From contig OX638316.1 of NCBI GenBank assembly GCA_951812525.1, forward strand, positions 1,128,506-1,192,505: 64,000 nucleotides of DNA, given 5' to 3'. This DNA is from an uncultured Poribacteria bacterium. GTDB lineage: Bacteria; Poribacteria; WGA-4E; WGA-3G. Positions within the stretch are counted from its first letter, which is position 1. The number at the start of each line of letters is the position of its first letter. A program made the position numbers and the translations under genes. Shown here in pieces: positions 38,700 to 48,064 of the stretch. The notes beneath the pieces were generated by a model that had not been told where the DNA came from, did no database searches, and worked only from the letters and a program-made list of their open reading frames with translations.

Positions 38700-41108
38700 T
38701 TAAAATCGTTTTTTACTGCGCTCTTGGACCCAGCGGAGAACTATCTCGCGGTTTTCGGTGTCGCCGTACTGCTGGAACTGATTGGCAAGCTGCTTTCCCG
38801 TTTCGATGAGAAGCGGATTTAACATTTCAGACTTAGATTTCAGGGCGAGTTCATACTTTTGCATAGCGGCAGTCAGTTGCTTCCGCTTCACCAAGCCAAC
38901 TGCGAGACCGCAACGGACTTTAACGAGTGTATCATCTCTCATCTTATCGGAACGTCGTCGAATCAGTTGGGATTCCAGTGATAACAGGTTCCTGAATGCT
39001 GACATGTTAATCGGATCTTTCTGAAGGACGGTTTCAAAAGCCGTAAATGCTTTCTGGTGTTCACCTTGGACGAGACAGAGGTAACCAATGGTATTGTAAA
39101 TCTGAATATCTCGTTTGGATTTGGGAATCGCCTCGAATTCAGTGAGGGCAGCGGCGTATTCCCGTTTTCTCATGAGCGCATTTCCGTGTCGGATTCTCAG
39201 GTTAACCTGCTCCTCTTTTGCCTGCGGATTTTCTGGCGATTCTGCCAAGACGCGCGATAATTCAATGGACGCACGTTCATAGTTCCCCGCACCCTGATAG
39301 GCATTCGCTAAACTCAAACGTAAATTCAGATCGGTAGATGTAAGTCGGAGTGCCTCCTCAAGGAGCTGAATTGCTGTTACGTAGTCTTCTGCATCGCTGA
39401 GGCTTCGCGCATAGTGATGATAGGCTGCGATAAGATTATGCAAAGCGTGAGCAGCCTTCGGATTGGCGTTGTAAACGTGTTGGAATGCCGATAGCGCCTC
39501 CGCATAGTCGCCCTTTTTGAGATGTAACTCTCCAAGTAAATTGCGAATGTGCATATCATGAGGGTGGAGTTTCTGTAATTCAAGATATGCCTGTACCGCT
39601 TCGTCTAACTCACCCGCCTCGCTATGCGCCTTCGCTTTTCGGGTAAAGGCATCACTCAGATTTGTGTGTGCTATATGGAGTGTTGGCATCAACCGCAAAG
39701 CGTTCCGATACGCATCAATCGCCTCATCCCATTCTTCACGATTTCGCAAGCTCACACCGTAGTTATTATAGCATTGGGCGAGGTTTTGCCGTGTCAGCGC
39801 ATCGACGGGGTTAATATCAACAGCCTTCAGGTAGTAAGCAATCGCAGTCTCAAATTTCCCCGCCTGTGCGTAACCATTGCCCATGAGTTGGTACGTAGGA
39901 GCGTCAAGTGGCTCCATGTGCAGCACTCTTTCAAAAGTAGCAGTGGCGGTATCAAAGTCTTCCGCCGCCAATGCCTTGAAGCCCTTTGCCCTGAGAAGTT
40001 GATGCAGGTTTCGCCGAGCGGCTTTGTGATAGGGAGCGATGTGAAGTGCCTTCTCAAACACTTGTATCGCCTTTTCAACCTCCTGTTTCTCATAGTAGAA
40101 GATACCGAGTGTGTTGTAATCTGCTGGCGACGGTTTCGCCGCGACCCGTTCTTCAACAAGCGCGATCGCTTGATCGGTCTTCCCTGTTTCGTGGTAGATT
40201 TGGATGAGTTTCTCTATTGCGGGCTGAAATTTTGGATTTAGTTCTCTGCAGGCTTGGAAGGTAGCAATTGCAGCCGGTATATCGCCTTTGTCGAAGTAGA
40301 TAGCTCCGAGGAGATAGTGTGCCCGAAGTTGTGTCTGAGGATCAGCGTAGGGTTTCAGTTCAATCTCGGTTTTCAGGACCTTGATAGCGATATCGTGTTG
40401 TGCTGTATTAAGCGGCGTGTTATAAAGCTTATGCAGTGTGGCTATATCGCGGTCGGACGGCTGTTGTGCGGTCGCTGTCGGATAACAGATGTCTCCCGGA
40501 TGCGGACTGTGACCCCACAACCCGATCGCATGTCCGAATTCATGGACGCACACCGTTCGCATCTCTTCCTGGGATAAGCCACCGATCGTCCCGTAGCCTT
40601 CTAACATGAGGATAACTTCTACTGTAAAACTGATTTCATGTTCTGATTCGGTTTCCCGGTCTTCAACTGCAGTGATAGGACCTACATCTAATCCGTTAGA
40701 AAAGGTGCCGATTTGGACGCTATCTTTGAGACGTGTTAGTTCTGCACTGCCGAGTCTGGTATCCTGAAAGTCAGCGAGGAAACCGGTATACCCCCAGCTG
40801 ACGCGGATGTCCGCATCCTGAGGAACATCGGTCTCTTCAAAACGGATGTCGCCGTCACTGGCGTTGTGCCACCCTTGCATGGCATATCGGATTTCGGGTA
40901 AGTATGGACTGTCTTTTAAAACAGGCGAGATGTATACCCGGATCGGCATCTGTGTGAAACGGGTGATTCTGCCTTGAGAGAAGAGCGTGATGTGATCGAA
41001 ATAGTCCGCATTCGGTGACAGGGAAGGTTGCTGCGCTATAGCGTTGAGTATGAAAATGAAGGTTATGAGGATAACAGCGGAAAAATGTTTTAAGGTTCTC
41101 GTTGACAC
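38700..41108 (-). CDS. Exported matrixin-like metalloprotease fused to TPR repeats
   Basis: An 802-residue protein with a signal peptide ending NAIAQ. Residues about 35-240 form a metzincin-type protease domain: TVCVHEFGHAIGLWGHS holds the zinc site (HExxHxxGxxxHS, one residue longer than the canonical motif) and GDICY replaces the usual Met-turn. About 12 TPR repeats fill the rest. It would act in the periplasm or outside, with the TPR part binding partners or substrates. The start is GTG 41108 with GGAG 7 bases upstream; the 13 codons before it are unlike a signal peptide. It is downstream of the caspase/LPP20 cluster. Confidence 0.82.
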   Translation of the reverse strand: MSTRTLKHFSAVILITFIFILNAIAQQPSLSPNADYFDHITLFSQGRITRFTQMPIRVYISPVLKDSPYLPEIRYAMQGWHNASDGDIRFEETDVPQDADIRVSWGYTGFLADFQDTRLGSAELTRLKDSVQIGTFSNGLDVGPITAVEDRETESEHEISFTVEVILMLEGYGTIGGLSQEEMRTVCVHEFGHAIGLWGHSPHPGDICYPTATAQQPSDRDIATLHKLYNTPLNTAQHDIAIKVLKTEIELKPYADPQTQLRAHYLLGAIYFDKGDIPAAIATFQACRELNPKFQPAIEKLIQIYHETGKTDQAIALVEERVAAKPSPADYNTLGIFYYEKQEVEKAIQVFEKALHIAPYHKAARRNLHQLLRAKGFKALAAEDFDTATATFERVLHMEPLDAPTYQLMGNGYAQAGKFETAIAYYLKAVDINPVDALTRQNLAQCYNNYGVSLRNREEWDEAIDAYRNALRLMPTLHIAHTNLSDAFTRKAKAHSEAGELDEAVQAYLELQKLHPHDMHIRNLLGELHLKKGDYAEALSAFQHVYNANPKAAHALHNLIAAYHHYARSLSDAEDYVTAIQLLEEALRLTSTDLNLRLSLANAYQGAGNYERASIELSRVLAESPENPQAKEEQVNLRIRHGNALMRKREYAAALTEFEAIPKSKRDIQIYNTIGYLCLVQGEHQKAFTAFETVLQKDPINMSAFRNLLSLESQLIRRRSDKMRDDTLVKVRCGLAVGLVKRKQLTAAMQKYELALKSKSEMLNPLLIETGKQLANQFQQYGDTENREIVLRWVQERSKKRF

Positions 41109-41306
41109 AAAAAGACTCCTATTTTTTTCCCAATCGACGCTGAGCACACGCGTAGCACTCAGCAGGCATTATTTTTAAACACGCTTTGGTAAGCTCATAG
41201 CAGAGCAATTCATCGCACACACCTAGGCAGACAGGTAGTAAATTACTCTACTATAAACATCTGATAGATAACCCACCTACAGTTTCAAGACGATCTTACA
41301 CTCGTT

Positions 41307-43055
41307 TCATCTTTCCATTGTCATGACTGTAACTTCCATTTCGTTATATTGAAAATCAGTGTGATTTTCATCAGGTGTTCGCTTCATTCCTCGATCATCC
41401 TCTCCCCGAAAAGCTCGAGCAGCTAACCTCGGATCTTGATCTATCAAGAAGAGATATCCCCCGTCTATATAAGTCTGAATAGGTGGAAATTTCTCTGTTC
41501 GTGCCCCAACAACCAAGATTTCCGCACCAAACGGTGGGGCACACACAAATGTGCCAATCTCCACGTCACTGTCGACTCGTGACGAATCAATATAGTAGTT
41601 ATCTTGGAGAAGCGTGTATTTCCTATCATCAGCAAGAATATAGAGCAACCTGAGATAAGCGGGTCGATTCACACGTCCAAAAACTGTCATTGTCTCATCT
41701 ATGTAATACTCAGGGCTTCGTCCTCTGTCTGTCCATACCTCAACCTCTAAGCCACCAACCGGAGAAAGCCGAGACTCAATGCGTTCATTGGGTGTGATGA
41801 CCTCGGGATCCTTCGAATTGGATACAACATATTGACGCTTGAAAACATTTTTATTTTTGCGGAATGGCTCATAATTGGGAGGCACGAGGACAAGTGGCGG
41901 ACGAAGCTGCGAATTCAAGAAACTCACCACACTGCTTGCTAGAAATTCACCCGTCTGTAGATCTCGCAGTGTTTTCCGAATTGTAATTTCGTCGCCGTTT
42001 TCCCAACACGAACCAGAAAGTCGATATCCTTTTTCTTCATTCGTTCTACTGTAGTCAAAGTTTGTCGCCATGAAGCCACGCCCACGATGGACAAAATTCC
42101 ATCCAAGCTGTTTCTCTATCGCTTTACCAAAATCTCGGGAAAATTGACAAATCAGCCCATCATGCTTGTAGGTAAGAGGCTCAAGCTGGACTTTGGCAAC
42201 AGGGGTACTAATCAGTTGTGTCACAAGTTGAAATGCAGTGGCATAAACAATATCACCAACAGTGACAATAACATCGGAATCAAGTTCTTTAACACGCTTA
42301 ATCACTTGCCTGTGTGACATCATAAGGACATCACTGCCAGCAGTAACCGTTGCAGCATTCTCTAATCGCGTGAGTGCTTCGCTAAAATTGGGAGCGTATT
42401 CAGCTCCAATCTGAATAATCTCTGCTTCTTTCAATGCTTCGTAAAGCGGATAGGTTTGCAGATATATTTCCTCTGCACTTTTTATATCCAATGTCTTTTC
42501 TGCATTTTGAGCATGCTCTAGCATACGGTCAATCTCTCGATGCAGTTTCTGCTCTTGTTCAGCATAGAGATGCTTGAGTTCATCTCGTCTGATATAGACG
42601 AGCGCATACGTATATTGGCCTTCATTTACCGCATTGATAGACAGATTCTGTTCGCTAAGCCCTCCCAACTGTAAAGCTGGAAATTTCTGGGATTCTAGAC
42701 AATAATGTTCCAATACCGCGCTATAGTGTTCACGTACCATGTCGTACTGCACCGAATCATTTGCAAGAATAATAGCCTGTACGCTCAAAAGAATCCGAGT
42801 AGCAATTCTATTCCGAGCACGCACCAAGGCATTTTCAAAGGCTTCTTTACCGGTTCCACGGCTCTTCCCTACCTCAAAAAGGAACGTTTCAATCGGATAT
42901 TTTTTTAGTTCACGTAGAACCCAACTTGGCAAAGGGTCGGATTCCAAAGCATGGGCGTGGTTTGCCGTGTGGAAGCCTGTGCTTTCCATGAGTTCCGGTA
43001 CGGCGCAGCCAATTGCCGCACACACAATTAAAAAACAAAAAACTAGTTTTCGCAT
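41307..43055 (-). CDS. Lipoprotein with LPP20-like and DUF4384-like domains
   Basis: A 582-residue lipoprotein with lipobox AAIGC (Cys17). The N-terminal part (LPSWVLRELKKYP, VGKSRGTGKEAFENALVRARNRIATRI) resembles LPP20-family lipoproteins. A helical middle section and a beta-rich segment follow. The C-terminal 160 residues (EVEVWTDRG, YYIDETMTVFGRVNRPAYLRLLYILADD, LLQDNYYID, APPFGAEILVVGARTEKFPP) match the DUF4384 pattern. DUF4384 is often linked to caspase-like peptidases, and this gene starts 34 bases after the stop of the exported caspase, so the two are almost certainly an operon. I use ATG 43055 because GGAG lies upstream and the signal peptide starts there. Confidence 0.78.
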   Translation of the reverse strand: MRKLVFCFLIVCAAIGCAVPELMESTGFHTANHAHALESDPLPSWVLRELKKYPIETFLFEVGKSRGTGKEAFENALVRARNRIATRILLSVQAIILANDSVQYDMVREHYSAVLEHYCLESQKFPALQLGGLSEQNLSINAVNEGQYTYALVYIRRDELKHLYAEQEQKLHREIDRMLEHAQNAEKTLDIKSAEEIYLQTYPLYEALKEAEIIQIGAEYAPNFSEALTRLENAATVTAGSDVLMMSHRQVIKRVKELDSDVIVTVGDIVYATAFQLVTQLISTPVAKVQLEPLTYKHDGLICQFSRDFGKAIEKQLGWNFVHRGRGFMATNFDYSRTNEEKGYRLSGSCWENGDEITIRKTLRDLQTGEFLASSVVSFLNSQLRPPLVLVPPNYEPFRKNKNVFKRQYVVSNSKDPEVITPNERIESRLSPVGGLEVEVWTDRGRSPEYYIDETMTVFGRVNRPAYLRLLYILADDRKYTLLQDNYYIDSSRVDSDVEIGTFVCAPPFGAEILVVGARTEKFPPIQTYIDGGYLFLIDQDPRLAARAFRGEDDRGMKRTPDENHTDFQYNEMEVTVMTMER

Positions 43056-43089
43056 GGTTAGGTGTTTCTCCATTTAAGAATTGATTGTC

Positions 43090-45693
43090 TCATTCTGCAA
43101 TAAACAGAAAATCGCTTCCTGGCTCATTCCGACCAAATTCATCAAAACAGGGTGTAGGATCATTGAGATTCCTAAGGTAAGTTAAAATTTCCTTTATGGT
43201 CAGGATGTTGTCGTGACCACCCTTGCTCCGCAAAGCACCAAGCAAGGCACGAACAAACTTGGAGTTGTCAGGCACTCGCTCATTAGCTCCTGATGTCAAA
43301 TACCACCGAGTCGTGTATGTCATTATCCGATCAATATCTGCCTGTGAGAGGACGTCGGAAACACTGTCTGCTTCGCCACGCGGAATAAGTCGTTCATCAA
43401 AAGTTCCACTATAGCAGGTATCCATCAGCAAAAAAATGTGTTTACACGACATCCTGTCAATAAAATCGCGGAAATAGGAATGGGAAAAGTAACTTTCCCT
43501 GTAATTGTCATGCTCAGGACCTTCTGTGTCTCGACAAACAAGAGACCCCATATTGGCTACCTTATTAAAATCTCCATGCCCCGCAAAGAAGATTAACAGT
43601 TGGTCTTCAGGTGCATATTCCTTCTGTGCATATTTGTGTAGTTCGCGAAGAATATCTGCCTTCGTTGGGTTCTGAATCAACTCAGTTTGAAAACCATAAA
43701 TGCTTTCCAAATCATGCTTGATGTCCCGGGCGTCAGCGATGGGATACCGGAGATTGGGCCAGTGGTCATAGGTATTCACAGCAAACAACAACGCGTAATT
43801 TTTCCGTGGTGGAGATGGGATCGGATCAATAATTACATCCTTGAATGCCTGATTACCCAATGTGTCTGTTGCTGTCACGCGAATTAGGTAATCCTCATAA
43901 ACCAACGGAACTGTTGCTTCAAACCTGCCTTCCGTAATCTGTACTTCTATGCCTTTAACCTTAACTTCAGCAACTCCACTTGGATCGGTAACTGTGCCTG
44001 AAATAAGGACAGACTCTGTAGATAAGAAGTCTGGAGATTGAAATCCACGCTCTGTCCTGCTCGCTGGAGAGGAGATACTAATATTAGGTCCAGTAGTGTC
44101 CCGGACGATAGTGAGTTGGTCTGTACCCACATTACCGCTCGTGTCTGTCGCCGTGACACGGATCAGATTCTCACCTTCAAATAACTGGACTATTGTAGTA
44201 AAAGCACCATTCGCCGAGATCGTCGTTCCTACGTCATCTACTCTGACTTCGTTAACACCATTGTCATCAGTGGCACTGCCTTCAATAGTAAACTGCCTCG
44301 CAGCCACACGAGCATCACGCGATGCAGGTGAGTGAATAAAAATCTCCGGTGGTGTCGGGTCCTCGAGAATAGAATGAGGCTTTTCGACAATGAACTGGTG
44401 TGTACCCATGTTACCATACACATCTGTTGCAATAATACGAATCTCATTTTTCTCCTGATTGAGCGGGATTGTCGCTCTGAATACATCCTCCTCTAAAACA
44501 AAAGTTTCCCTACCGTTGATCCGAACTTCGGCAACTCTGCTGTCATCAGAAACGCTGACCTCAACAGGAATCTGTCTAACACTTGAGTCTACGACCCGTT
44601 CCATAGGTGAGCGAATAACAATTTCGGGTGGGATCGTGTCTTGATCATGCGGTATACCCTCATTCTTGACCGTTCTATCATCAATTGGAGGCGGTTCAAC
44701 CCCGAAATAGGAGAGATCCCAGAGTAAAACAGTACGGTCTCGGCTACCGCTGGCGAGTAGCAGCCCATCCGGTGAAAATGCAACAGAAGTTACCCCACCG
44801 TGATGTCCCGTAAGCGTGTTAATTTCGCGACGCTCCACAACATCCCACAATCTAACAGTGTAATCAACACAAGCAGAAGCAAGAAACTTTCCATCGGGCG
44901 AAAACGCTATTGCTTCGGCGTAAGCATAGAGACTATTCCTAATTTCAAAAGTAGCAAAGTTTTCTCCAGAAGAGACATCCCAGAGTCTGATAGTGTTATC
45001 ACGACTACTACTTGCAAGCATCTCACCATCGGGCGAAAATACAACAGCGTGCACAACGCTCCTATGTCCGGCGAGGGTTTTGAGCATGTGCTGATTGGCA
45101 ACATCCCAAATTTTGATAGTCCCATCGCGACTTGCCGAGGCGAGTAACCTTCCATCTCGAGAAAACGTAACTGATTCAACGAGGGCATCATGGCTGGAAA
45201 AAGTGGCAATGGAACGACTTTGAAGGACATTCCACAACCTAACGGAGCCCTCCTGATCTCCGCCACCGCTCGCAAGCATTTTTCCATCGGGTGAAAACGC
45301 AATCGACTCTACCCAACCACCATGTCTAAGAGAGACACGGCTGTGTTCAGAAGAGACATGCCACAGTCTCACATAGCCATCAAGACTTGCTGAGGCAAGC
45401 AACTGTCCTGTGGGCGAAAAGGCAATCGACATCACCGATTTGCCGTGCTCAATAAAAGACTCACGCTTGCTTCTGTCGGCAACATCCCATAATATGACAG
45501 CGTTATCATCACCACCGCTTGCGAGTAACTCGCCATCAGGAGAAAAAGCGACGGTGTACACCGAAGCACCAGGACTAAATCGTTCTATCACGCCATCAGG
45601 AAGGCGATCGGTGGACGACTGTCCATTTGCAACGGTTAAACTCACTAAATAGGTGAGGAGCATTACATTAAAGAGGAAAATTTTGCGTTTCAT
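43090..45693 (-). CDS. Exported WD40 propeller-Ig-caspase (peptidase C14) protein
   Basis: An 867-residue protein with an N-terminal signal peptide ending VANGQ. Seven WD40 blades (about 40-335, FSPDG..LASG...LWDV) are followed by three Ig-like modules of about 90 residues, each starting PPEI or GPNI and containing RVTATD. The C-terminal caspase fold is NYALLFAVNTYDHWPNLRYPIADARDI, with His near 704 in FFAGHGDF and Cys near 758 in LLMDTCYSG. The catalytic pair is intact, so it should be a metacaspase-like protease active outside the cytoplasm. It has its own promoter (45763-45791) and is followed by the LPP20/DUF4384 lipoprotein. Confidence 0.9.
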   Translation of the reverse strand: MKRKIFLFNVMLLTYLVSLTVANGQSSTDRLPDGVIERFSPGASVYTVAFSPDGELLASGGDDNAVILWDVADRSKRESFIEHGKSVMSIAFSPTGQLLASASLDGYVRLWHVSSEHSRVSLRHGGWVESIAFSPDGKMLASGGGDQEGSVRLWNVLQSRSIATFSSHDALVESVTFSRDGRLLASASRDGTIKIWDVANQHMLKTLAGHRSVVHAVVFSPDGEMLASSSRDNTIRLWDVSSGENFATFEIRNSLYAYAEAIAFSPDGKFLASACVDYTVRLWDVVERREINTLTGHHGGVTSVAFSPDGLLLASGSRDRTVLLWDLSYFGVEPPPIDDRTVKNEGIPHDQDTIPPEIVIRSPMERVVDSSVRQIPVEVSVSDDSRVAEVRINGRETFVLEEDVFRATIPLNQEKNEIRIIATDVYGNMGTHQFIVEKPHSILEDPTPPEIFIHSPASRDARVAARQFTIEGSATDDNGVNEVRVDDVGTTISANGAFTTIVQLFEGENLIRVTATDTSGNVGTDQLTIVRDTTGPNISISSPASRTERGFQSPDFLSTESVLISGTVTDPSGVAEVKVKGIEVQITEGRFEATVPLVYEDYLIRVTATDTLGNQAFKDVIIDPIPSPPRKNYALLFAVNTYDHWPNLRYPIADARDIKHDLESIYGFQTELIQNPTKADILRELHKYAQKEYAPEDQLLIFFAGHGDFNKVANMGSLVCRDTEGPEHDNYRESYFSHSYFRDFIDRMSCKHIFLLMDTCYSGTFDERLIPRGEADSVSDVLSQADIDRIMTYTTRWYLTSGANERVPDNSKFVRALLGALRSKGGHDNILTIKEILTYLRNLNDPTPCFDEFGRNEPGSDFLFIAE

Positions 45694-45762
45694 TCGACCA
45701 ACGTATTTCTACTAATCTACGTATACACAGAGTAACCTTGCACCATATCAACAGATTGTCTC

Positions 45763-45791
45763 ATTATAGACAAATGACACATTATCTACAA
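45763..45791 (-). promoter_or_regulatory. Promoter of the exported caspase operon
   Basis: On the minus strand TTGTAG (45786-45791), 17 bases, TATAAT (45763-45768), about 70 bases before the ATG at 45693. Confidence 0.65.
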
Positions 45792-45844
45792 TTATTATAC
45801 ATAAAAAGGGCGATAAATCAAGGCTTTTCGCGCGAGACAGTATC

Positions 45845-46882
45845 TTATTCTACGATGTGAAGGACTTTCTCAATTTCCGGATGGGTGAAATCGCTGGCTG
45901 CTTCAAAACGAAGATGGACTGATACATTTTGAGGGGACATCTCTGAGTCTGTACTGAAACCTAATGATTTAGTCTCTGATGTTTCTGGTTCAATGTTACC
46001 AAATTTTAATTTCCAATTGTCGAAGTGAGGATTATTAGGACTAATTGTTATCATGGTGAATTCCCTAAGCATAGTCTGGGCAGCGTTTTTCACAGTAACT
46101 TTTAATATCGCTTTTTCACCAGCACGCACCCTGTTTTCTACCCACTCTGTTTTTATTCCAACTTGTGGACGAGGCAGAGGATCTGGTATAGGATCTGGTA
46201 TAGGATCTGGACTCGGTATAATTCCCGATACAGTATAATTCCTTCTGTATTGCTTTTCACTAACGACCGTAGAAGCCCGAAACTTCAGCGATTCAAGGTT
46301 TCTGAGGTATGGTGGATATCCCAGTTCAGACAGAAATTCCCTGATTTCAATACGCTCAGTCCCAGTTGTTGTCCGGTAATCTATACCGATATTGCCGTGG
46401 TCGGGAAGTTCAATACGATATGGATGATCTGTTAGCGGTTCCTTTTGGTCTTCTACCAACTTACGATCAAACGGATATGCGAACGCCCAGTAAAGTAGGA
46501 TGTCCGCTGGCACCCCTATCATCACCGCTTTTTCCCACGGCTCTGAATCGTACCAGTCAAATGTATCATCGAGAAAAGTAAAAGTATAGTCGTGATCCCA
46601 ATTATCGTAGAGCACCTTTCCCAAAAGACCTAAGGATACGAGCCCAACACCGAGGTCAGTGAGAGTTATCCGGGGTTTGCGTATGCTATAAGGCTGATAT
46701 GCCAACGTCACAATCAGACTGCTGTCTGTTTCCCTAAATCCGAGTTGGAAATCCCTCTTGGTTTTATTCGCTAGCTTGAGTCCGTACTCCATACGAGTTT
46801 CTGCGAAGCGTACGACTGAGCACCCCGTAATATTTATTAAAATCACAACCATAAGCGTAAACACGGTTAAATTCTGTTTCAT
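45845..46882 (-). CDS. Lipoprotein with two hydrophobic spans and a Pro-Asp linker
   Basis: A 345-residue protein with lipobox NITGC (Cys21). Hydrophobic stretches near residues 75-95 (DLGVGLVSLGLLGKVL) and 120-138 (VMIGVPADILLYWAFAYP) could be membrane spans. A PDPIPDPIPDPLPRP linker near 225 is encoded by 12-bp tandem repeats (46179-46214). The C-terminal 110 residues (RAGEKAILKVTVKNAAQTMLREF, LKFGNIEPETSETKSL) look like an Ig-type module related to CARDB-like domains. ATG 46882 is preferred because GAGG lies 5 bases upstream. It follows the channel gene by 24 bases. The family is not recognised; I infer a partner of the envelope cluster. Confidence 0.7.
   Translation of the reverse strand: MKQNLTVFTLMVVILINITGCSVVRFAETRMEYGLKLANKTKRDFQLGFRETDSSLIVTLAYQPYSIRKPRITLTDLGVGLVSLGLLGKVLYDNWDHDYTFTFLDDTFDWYDSEPWEKAVMIGVPADILLYWAFAYPFDRKLVEDQKEPLTDHPYRIELPDHGNIGIDYRTTTGTERIEIREFLSELGYPPYLRNLESLKFRASTVVSEKQYRRNYTVSGIIPSPDPIPDPIPDPLPRPQVGIKTEWVENRVRAGEKAILKVTVKNAAQTMLREFTMITISPNNPHFDNWKLKFGNIEPETSETKSLGFSTDSEMSPQNVSVHLRFEAASDFTHPEIEKVLHIVE
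46179..46214. repeat. 12-bp tandem repeats encoding Pro-Asp-Pro-Ile linker
   Basis: Three near-perfect copies of ATAGGATCTGGT (plus-strand sense) encode the PDPI repeats of the lipoprotein on the minus strand. The copy number may vary. Confidence 0.8.
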
Positions 46883-46906
46883 AAACGCCTCATTTTTCTC
46901 CGCCAA

Positions 46907-48064
46907 CTAACTCCGGCTCGCCAGTTTATTTGAGAAAATACTGATTAACCCGCCCAACATCATATACCCAAAAATTACCTCCAGTGTGACGAAGAAACGC
47001 GCGGCGGCGTTGTCGGCTACAATATCTCCGAAACCGAGCGTCGTAAAGGTGACAACACTAAAGTAGAAGCAATGCCAAAAAGTTAGCGGTTCATCACTAT
47101 ACATACCCGTGCTTTGATGGAACTGCGGTGCGAAACTTTGCATCCAAGTCGGTGCCCACGTCGGAAGTGGCATGTACGCCAAGGCAAAAAGAAACGCAAA
47201 GAAAAGCGACCAGAATGCCCAAAGCCCCAGACTCCGTCCATAATCGGAACTCCACCGCCATAACCCCGCTAATACAGGATTCGCCTGATTGAAGGCACGA
47301 ATGAACTGCTGGTCGGCGACGTAGCGTTTAAAAAAAGGGTTCGTTACACCGTCTACTTGTTGGCTATCCAAATAAAATTCGGTGGGACGATGCTGCTCTC
47401 TGCTCAGTTTCGCTTTCCCCGCCTGAAAGAGTGTGTCCGGGATATAGTGAGCATCCCGAAAGGTAGCGACAGAAATGAACCGTGCTGCAGCAAAGTTTGT
47501 AGGACCGAGAAATGTAGCGTTATTGAACGTAGTGGTTTCAGGAAACAATGTTCCCGTACAATCAAGTGTGCCTTGAAATAGGGCGCGACGAAAATTGACT
47601 TCATTATGGAAATTAGCTTCGTGGAAAACGGCGTTCTCCCGAAATTGGACCCCATGGAAATCAGCAACGTTGTTAAATCTTGCCCGCCAAAAACTGGCAC
47701 TTTTGCGGAACATTGCACTATGAAAATCAGCGCGTCTCTGAAAGATCGCTTCACGGAATGCACACGGACCGTATAAGACAGCTTCATCTAAGTCAAGAAT
47801 CCCCTCAAAGAGCGTACGCCGAAAGTCAACCTCCTGGTGAAAAACGACTGCCCGAAAATTGACGATGTTTCTAAACGTGCATCCGATGCAAGCGAGTGAT
47901 TTTTTGAGAAGAATCCGGTCGTGTTCATCCCGTTCCAATTCGGTGGAAAAGATATCGACAACCCCTTCAATAATGCAATTCGTAAGGACAACACGACCAG
48001 TATCGGCTTGTAACGCCTCAAGGAAGGTGCGTGCACTGATCGTTTCGCCATGCTTCTCGTACAT
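46907..48064 (-). CDS. Pentapeptide-repeat ion channel (K+ channel type)
   Basis: A 385-residue protein. Residues about 60-220 form pentapeptide repeats (cFRNIVNFRAVVF, FREAIFQRRADFHSAMF, NFRRALFQG). The C-terminal membrane part has one span near 280-300 (LWAFWSLFFAFLFALAYM), a pore loop with the selectivity filter TTLGFGD near 343 and a last span (LEVIFGYMMLGGLISIF). The arrangement, a two-span potassium-type channel after a pentapeptide solenoid, is known in bacteria. It is the first gene of the minus-strand run leading to the lipoprotein and caspase genes. It may set membrane potential in response to a signal sensed by the solenoid. Confidence 0.9.
   Translation of the reverse strand: MYEKHGETISARTFLEALQADTGRVVLTNCIIEGVVDIFSTELERDEHDRILLKKSLACIGCTFRNIVNFRAVVFHQEVDFRRTLFEGILDLDEAVLYGPCAFREAIFQRRADFHSAMFRKSASFWRARFNNVADFHGVQFRENAVFHEANFHNEVNFRRALFQGTLDCTGTLFPETTTFNNATFLGPTNFAAARFISVATFRDAHYIPDTLFQAGKAKLSREQHRPTEFYLDSQQVDGVTNPFFKRYVADQQFIRAFNQANPVLAGLWRWSSDYGRSLGLWAFWSLFFAFLFALAYMPLPTWAPTWMQSFAPQFHQSTGMYSDEPLTFWHCFYFSVVTFTTLGFGDIVADNAAARFFVTLEVIFGYMMLGGLISIFSNKLASRS

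Follow-up and report, generated by a model that had tools for sequence, protein, structure and literature searches.

The window, a 64,000-nucleotide stretch of DNA from an uncultured Poribacteria bacterium, carries on its minus strand a cassette of three genes that lies between two backbone genes. The original prediction had grouped the cassette with the upstream backbone gene, and four intact open reading frames were indeed found in the predicted order of channel, lipoprotein (LP2), WD40-Ig-caspase and DUF4384 protein. From upstream to downstream, the features of the region are:

46907..48064, minus strand: pentapeptide-repeat K+-type channel; upstream backbone gene, outside the cassette
45845..46882, minus strand: LP2 lipoprotein, 345 aa; cassette gene
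45794..45821, minus strand: putative caspase promoter, TTGATT-N16-TATAAT; best promoter-like site of the region, kept in 6 genomes
43090..45693, minus strand: WD40-Ig-caspase, 867 aa; cassette gene (PF00400, PF09136, PF00656)
43414..43578, minus strand: caspase catalytic stretch from the His706 to the Cys760 codon, motif DTCYSG (sequence and alignments)
41307..43055, minus strand: DUF4384 protein, 582 aa; cassette gene (PF14326 homologues, AF2, Foldseek)
38700..41147, minus strand: TPR protein with a matrixin-type metalloprotease; downstream backbone gene, outside the cassette (PF00413 and TPR)

Each of the four genes had been expected to encode a signal peptide, a lipobox or membrane spans. 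This was borne out by the two spans of the channel, the lipoboxes of LP2 and the DUF4384 protein, and the signal peptide of the caspase, and an envelope location of the module is well supported. The functional unit is the three genes for LP2, the exported WD40-Ig-caspase and the exported DUF4384 protein, with the channel outside.

LP2 most likely starts at ATG 46882, since the relatives show a Shine-Dalgarno-like GGAGG at a position favouring this codon over TTG 46906. An N-terminal hydrophobic segment precedes the lipobox (ITGC), as in bacterial lipoproteins, and the lipidation residue Cys21 (codon 46822-46820) is invariant in all 17 aligned sequences, six of which are fused forms. No family matched LP2 above cut-off, and LP2 appears to represent a new lipoprotein family. 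Its homologues gave weak CARDB/ASH matches, and an Ig-type, CARDB/ASH-like fold is expected for its C-terminal part. The AF2 model of LP2 (pLDDT 73) predicts a two-helix membrane hairpin (residues 74-93 and 115-138) and two beta-sandwich domains; a structure search with the model returned only generic Ig-like matches.

The caspase protein, a protease of the family responsible for cell killing in animals, consists of a signal peptide (residues 1-25), a seven-bladed WD40 domain (26-330), a linker with Ig-like domains of the Glucodextran_B/Big families (331-630), and a caspase domain (631-867) that matches Peptidase_C14 (PF00656) with an E value of 2e-19 and 70.6 bits against a cut-off of 21.4. 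The catalytic His706 (codon 43578-43576) and Cys760 (codon 43416-43414), predicted to be intact, are invariant together with Asp758 in 11 caspase orthologues, and the catalytic His and Cys are also invariant in the aligned fused caspases. A sequence search for a solved structure close to the caspase found none. Mean identity to the window over the orthologues was 69% for the WD40 domain, 68% for the caspase domain and 49% for the Ig region, which thus evolves fastest. Signal peptides, judged by eye and hydropathy, are conserved in all unfused caspase orthologues, suggesting that the unfused caspases are exported. The DTCYSG motif resembles that of metacaspases/orthocaspases, and judging from this motif the enzyme probably cleaves after basic residues (Arg/Lys), as orthocaspases are described to cut after positively charged residues (PMC6426788). 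Other caspase genes were seen in the course of the analysis. The window's own genome encodes another exported caspase, FGE-sulfatase-like in its C-terminal part (L175:4852-7467), close homologues of which adjoin DUF4384 genes in G077 and G081 but not in the own genome, and G048 has a caspase-DUF4384 fusion. In G020, a frame change splits the caspase gene in the linker after the WD40 domain (L049:1040-1060), through either decay or an assembly error.

The product of the last cassette gene had been labelled an LPP20/DUF4384 lipoprotein. The LPP20 label (PF02169) was abandoned, as the window protein has no match and only one of 13 homologues has one (9e-4). For DUF4384 (PF14326), the window protein itself stays under the Pfam cut-off (21 against 27 bits), but all 13 scanned homologues match and several orthologues pass. 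The protein starts at ATG 43055 and has a lipobox (AIGC, Cys17, codon 43007-43005); it is a lipoprotein in the window's allele group only, whereas G001, G013, G035 and others have a plain signal peptide. Its layout comprises a helical N-terminal half, an LpoB/CsgG-like middle domain and a C-terminal DUF4384 beta domain. A Foldseek search of the AF2 model (pTM 0.79) against the PDB gave LpoB first (E 8.7e-5, prob 1.0), followed by GNA1162 and PelC. From the order of secondary structures, we read the LpoB/GNA1162/PelC fold as belonging to the middle domain, and the likeness of the model to LpoB is one of fold rather than of family membership. In some related loci, small related lipoproteins that share a GSWExVSI motif and are weakly lipocalin-like lie between the caspase and DUF4384 genes (L055:3980-4552, L167:2230-2841 and L067:2249-2869), and they are a possible further component of these loci.

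The claim that the caspase gene has its own promoter held up. Taken together, promoter-like sites are about as frequent in the region as expected by chance (12 found against 10.8 expected), but the best of them, TTGATT-N16-TATAAT at 45821-45794, lies inside the 151-bp gap between LP2 and the caspase gene, and six genomes conserve both of its hexamers and the 16-bp spacer between them. The site is a putative promoter of the caspase-DUF4384 pair. Because the caspase and DUF4384 genes are only 34 bp apart, they are probably on one transcript; LP2, being 24 bp behind the channel gene, may share the transcript of the channel.

Such tight spacing would fit a four-gene module in which a potassium channel and the caspase act together. 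The channel does have the features of its class: pentapeptide repeats, an Ion_trans_2 pore domain (PF07885, 49.6 bits), two membrane spans, no signal peptide, and a filter sequence (TTLGFGD) that fits the TxGxGD pattern of K+ channels. When the cassette and its flanking genes were sought in 60 relatives, however, the channel and the downstream gene, which encodes an exported TPR protein with a matrixin-type HExxHxxGxxH domain (HEFGHAIGLWGHS), proved to be core or near-core genes of the genus, and the TPR-metalloprotease gene was present in every same-genus genome searched. In 27 same-genus genomes the site is empty, with the channel and TPR-metalloprotease genes as immediate neighbours (gaps of about 13-212 bp between matches), and the 3' end of the channel gene passes unchanged into either the empty or the occupied arrangement. 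The triplet LP2-caspase-DUF4384 was found in 12 genomes. It occupies the site in eight, on one contig in G000, G001, G030, G033 and G084, and as pieces consistent across contig ends in G009, G013 and G020; contig ends interrupt the region in G002 and G015, which are therefore uninformative for occupancy. In the other four (G035, G077, G067 and G076) the triplet has no channel beside it, and in G035 the main site is empty while a different triplet lies elsewhere. Thus, the neighbourhood is conserved in relatives for three of the four predicted genes but not for the channel, and joint action of channel and caspase is largely refuted and scarcely credible.

The cassette of G076, a member of another genus, adjoins a 51% identical TPR-metalloprotease gene without the channel (L172:359-9055), which suggests that on the metalloprotease side the site may predate the genus. 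No target-site duplication or transposon was noticed by eye at the insertion junctions. Carriage by plasmids or phages was considered and set aside, with no LP2 found among 72,556 plasmid records and no match to the caspase domain among 50,697 phage records. Two further variations of the backbone were seen: in G018 an insertion with a 373-aa ORF interrupts the channel gene (L119:3543-6078), and in many relatives a gene for an AAA_15/AriA-like ATPase, missing in the window, lies just upstream of the channel (L041:5819-7426 and equivalents).

The predicted functional link between the exported caspase and the lipoproteins was strengthened by the distribution of LP2. A profile search across the phylum gave matches in 18 of 85 genomes, and 17 were left after exclusion of G061, where the match is confined to the generic C-terminal domain. 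In 15 of these 17, LP2 immediately precedes a caspase or is fused to it; in the remaining two (G013 and G020) it runs to the contig end, which is consistent with caspase linkage. In G035 and G077 the LP2 gene overlaps the caspase gene by 4 bp, and LP2::caspase fusions, all without the WD40 domain, are present in G006 (two tandem copies), G022, G047, G064, G080 and G084. Since the fused forms keep the lipobox, the fused caspase must lie on whichever side of the membrane receives exported lipoproteins. The adjacency or fusion of the two genes and the invariant lipidation cysteine in both forms are strong evidence that LP2 would serve as a membrane tether that keeps the caspase on the export side. 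The fused genes are flanked by a shared lipoprotein family without a Pfam match in G080 (L168:2675-11586), G006 (L057:12516-17225) and G047 (L058:9202-10260); Hsp70-type genes then follow in G006 and G080, one with a VWA domain in G080.

An exported protein with eukaryote-like repeats and a caspase domain could also act on proteins of the sponge host. The nearest named genomes are Poribacteria MAGs, and signal-peptide-bearing eukaryote-like repeat proteins are described as abundant in Poribacteria (PMC3909097). Anchoring through the lipobox, the patchy occurrence among close relatives, and a search of the caspase that found no surface-sorting domain argue against host interaction, which we regard as highly unlikely.

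The distribution of the cassette is insertion-like, and its sequences appear to reject simple vertical inheritance. On the tree of the TPR-metalloprotease, 8 changes are required to explain site occupancy, whose clustering is no stronger than that of shuffled labels (with G002 and G015 scored as empty). The core tree places G000 and G035 as sisters (100/100), yet the caspase data reject this pair (dlnL 120, p-AU 2e-63) and also the core pair of G001 and G009 (p 2e-4), p-values that are indicative, with several of the tested clades picked after the trees were seen. The caspase of G035 groups instead with that of G077, from another genus. The DUF4384 proteins of G001 and G013 are a different allele, with about 48-51% identity to the window compared with about 70% for G030 and G033. 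The caspase clade is in turn rejected by the DUF4384 data (dlnL 92), which means that single genes of the cassette have been exchanged independently and that the partner has been swapped. Transfer and recombination, rather than simple descent, are the plainest reading for the cassette. Repeated loss may add to the patchiness, which could alternatively come from repeated loss plus recombination.

The allele-like replacement of DUF4384, the fast Ig region and the export of the caspase are what would be expected if a tethered, surface-exposed caspase acted on neighbouring cells with the DUF4384 allele serving in self-recognition, and Asplund-Samuelsson et al. proposed a fratricidal use of extracellular metacaspases (PMC3501461). 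Anchoring on the producer's own membrane speaks against release, however, and no delivery machinery or immunity gene was recognised beside the cassette, so that we find fratricide or competition quite improbable.

The flanks of the cassettes were scanned selectively for known defence genes. In G077 the cassette has a type II methyltransferase on one side and DruF4-DruE4 with PDC-S11 on the other, every gene sharing the same strand (L170:5239-18001, L176:1-7265); at the threshold used, the genome contains one DruE. DruE and DruF without DruM and DruG are the pattern of Druantia IV (PMC8565338), and the G077 locus is a candidate Druantia IV-like defence locus holding the cassette. In G035 two PDC-S35/CAP12 TIR genes, the genome's only ones at the threshold used, immediately precede the cassette, and the other surrounding genes are of the housekeeping kind. 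No adjacent caspase was found at ten other TIR loci of the phylum (one caspase is ~8 kb away in G077), which argues that the TIR genes are not a fixed partner, and they were rejected as a general fourth component. Of the 85 phylum genomes, 39 have PDC-S35/CAP12 TIR genes, often two or three in tandem. The window's own site is flanked by ordinary genes, not defence genes, and inspection of the off-site cassettes of G067 and G076 gave no clear defence neighbour (the G067 contig is only 8.5 kb, and flanks were partly scanned). PADLOC found no complete known system in the cassette and no match for LP2 or the DUF4384 protein; the caspase matched the generic caspase model (8e-12) and a WD40-type model, and marginally AriB (0.037). 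Given this selective scan, the defence-type neighbourhoods in two genomes are suggestive but fall short of proof.

The ordinary neighbours at the main site, the conserved sigma-70-like promoter, the LpoB-like fold of the DUF4384 protein and the periplasmic parts would also suit a protease of envelope stress or quality control, in which LP2 and the DUF4384 protein sense damaged or misfolded envelope components and the caspase carries out regulated processing without death or conflict. For such a function, horizontal exchange, partner swapping and two defence-type neighbourhoods would be unusual, and the cassette is absent from most relatives, with a scattered presence that takes 8 changes on the core tree. 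We consider quality control unlikely. The patchy distribution, discordant trees, partner swapping and defence-type neighbourhoods point to conflict or immunity rather than general stress, and the function of envelope stress or cell death originally suggested for these genes may be narrowed in this direction.

In sponge-associated Poribacteria, the triplet is an optional, exchangeable cassette that resembles a conflict or self-destruct device outside the cell membrane more than a housekeeping operon. We propose that LP2, lipidated and inserted in the membrane, would keep the caspase at the periplasmic (or outer) face, by binding in the window type or by fusion in the LP2::caspase type. Sensing or docking would probably fall to the WD40 propeller and the Ig domains, and the caspase would cut after basic residues. 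The DUF4384 protein, made from the caspase promoter, may be an exchangeable envelope partner, most likely a regulator or a target linking the protease with the outer membrane or the cell wall; its middle domain folds like LpoB. A trigger such as envelope attack would free the tethered caspase from inhibition, and the freed caspase would damage the cell's own envelope or the components of an intruder in a conflict, immune or abortive response. We hold the case for a three-gene accessory cassette serving a membrane-tethered exported caspase in such a response to be evenly balanced, and that for a conflict or immune role of the accessory caspase effector to fall slightly short of this. A bolder version is put forward as a tentative and rather doubtful possibility: the cassette would be a new envelope-side immune system, in which a lipoprotein-tethered caspase beyond the cytoplasmic membrane senses surface attack and brings about self-destruction or intruder cleavage, with the DUF4384 partner as sensor or target. 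The three genes are a defined, testable unit, and the natural fusions name LP2 and the caspase as the probable interacting pair.

Searches of the open-licence literature turned up nothing on an LP2-like tether, on Poribacteria caspases, or on the cassette behaviour and defence context, which is weak evidence of novelty. The best named caspase subfamily by profile is the EACC1-associated caspase (NF047832), of which the window caspase is no member (60.5 bits, far under the cut-off of 140). LpoB/GNA1162/PelC/CsgG-type envelope lipoproteins share the fold of the DUF4384 middle domain but lack a sequence-family match with it and have other neighbours and another domain context. The Druantia type IV and CAP12/PDC-S35 TIR genes adjoin the cassette in G077 and G035, respectively, but they are not homologous to cassette genes and are not beside the window cassette. 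The linkage of caspase and DUF4384 in other bacteria is, as the original prediction stated, already known: fusions are reported in cyanobacteria (PMC8283722) and the combination in an alphaproteobacterial clade with a QC dyad (PMC6426788). The cassette shares this linkage, but here DUF4384 is part of a separate exported protein with an LpoB-like domain. Prokaryotic metacaspases/orthocaspases (PF00656) are alike in the p20 His-Cys dyad, the DTCYSG motif and the common WD40 accessory domains; possible signal peptides are also described for them, and an extracellular or fratricidal role has been suggested (PMC3501461). Unlike them, the cassette caspase is exported with a lipoprotein tether upstream or fused, and belongs to an exchangeable three-gene cassette. 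To our knowledge, the caspase effectors of described bacterial immune systems act inside the cell, and a tethered export-side caspase in an exchangeable cassette, seen twice in a defence neighbourhood, would broaden caspase-based conflict to include the envelope.
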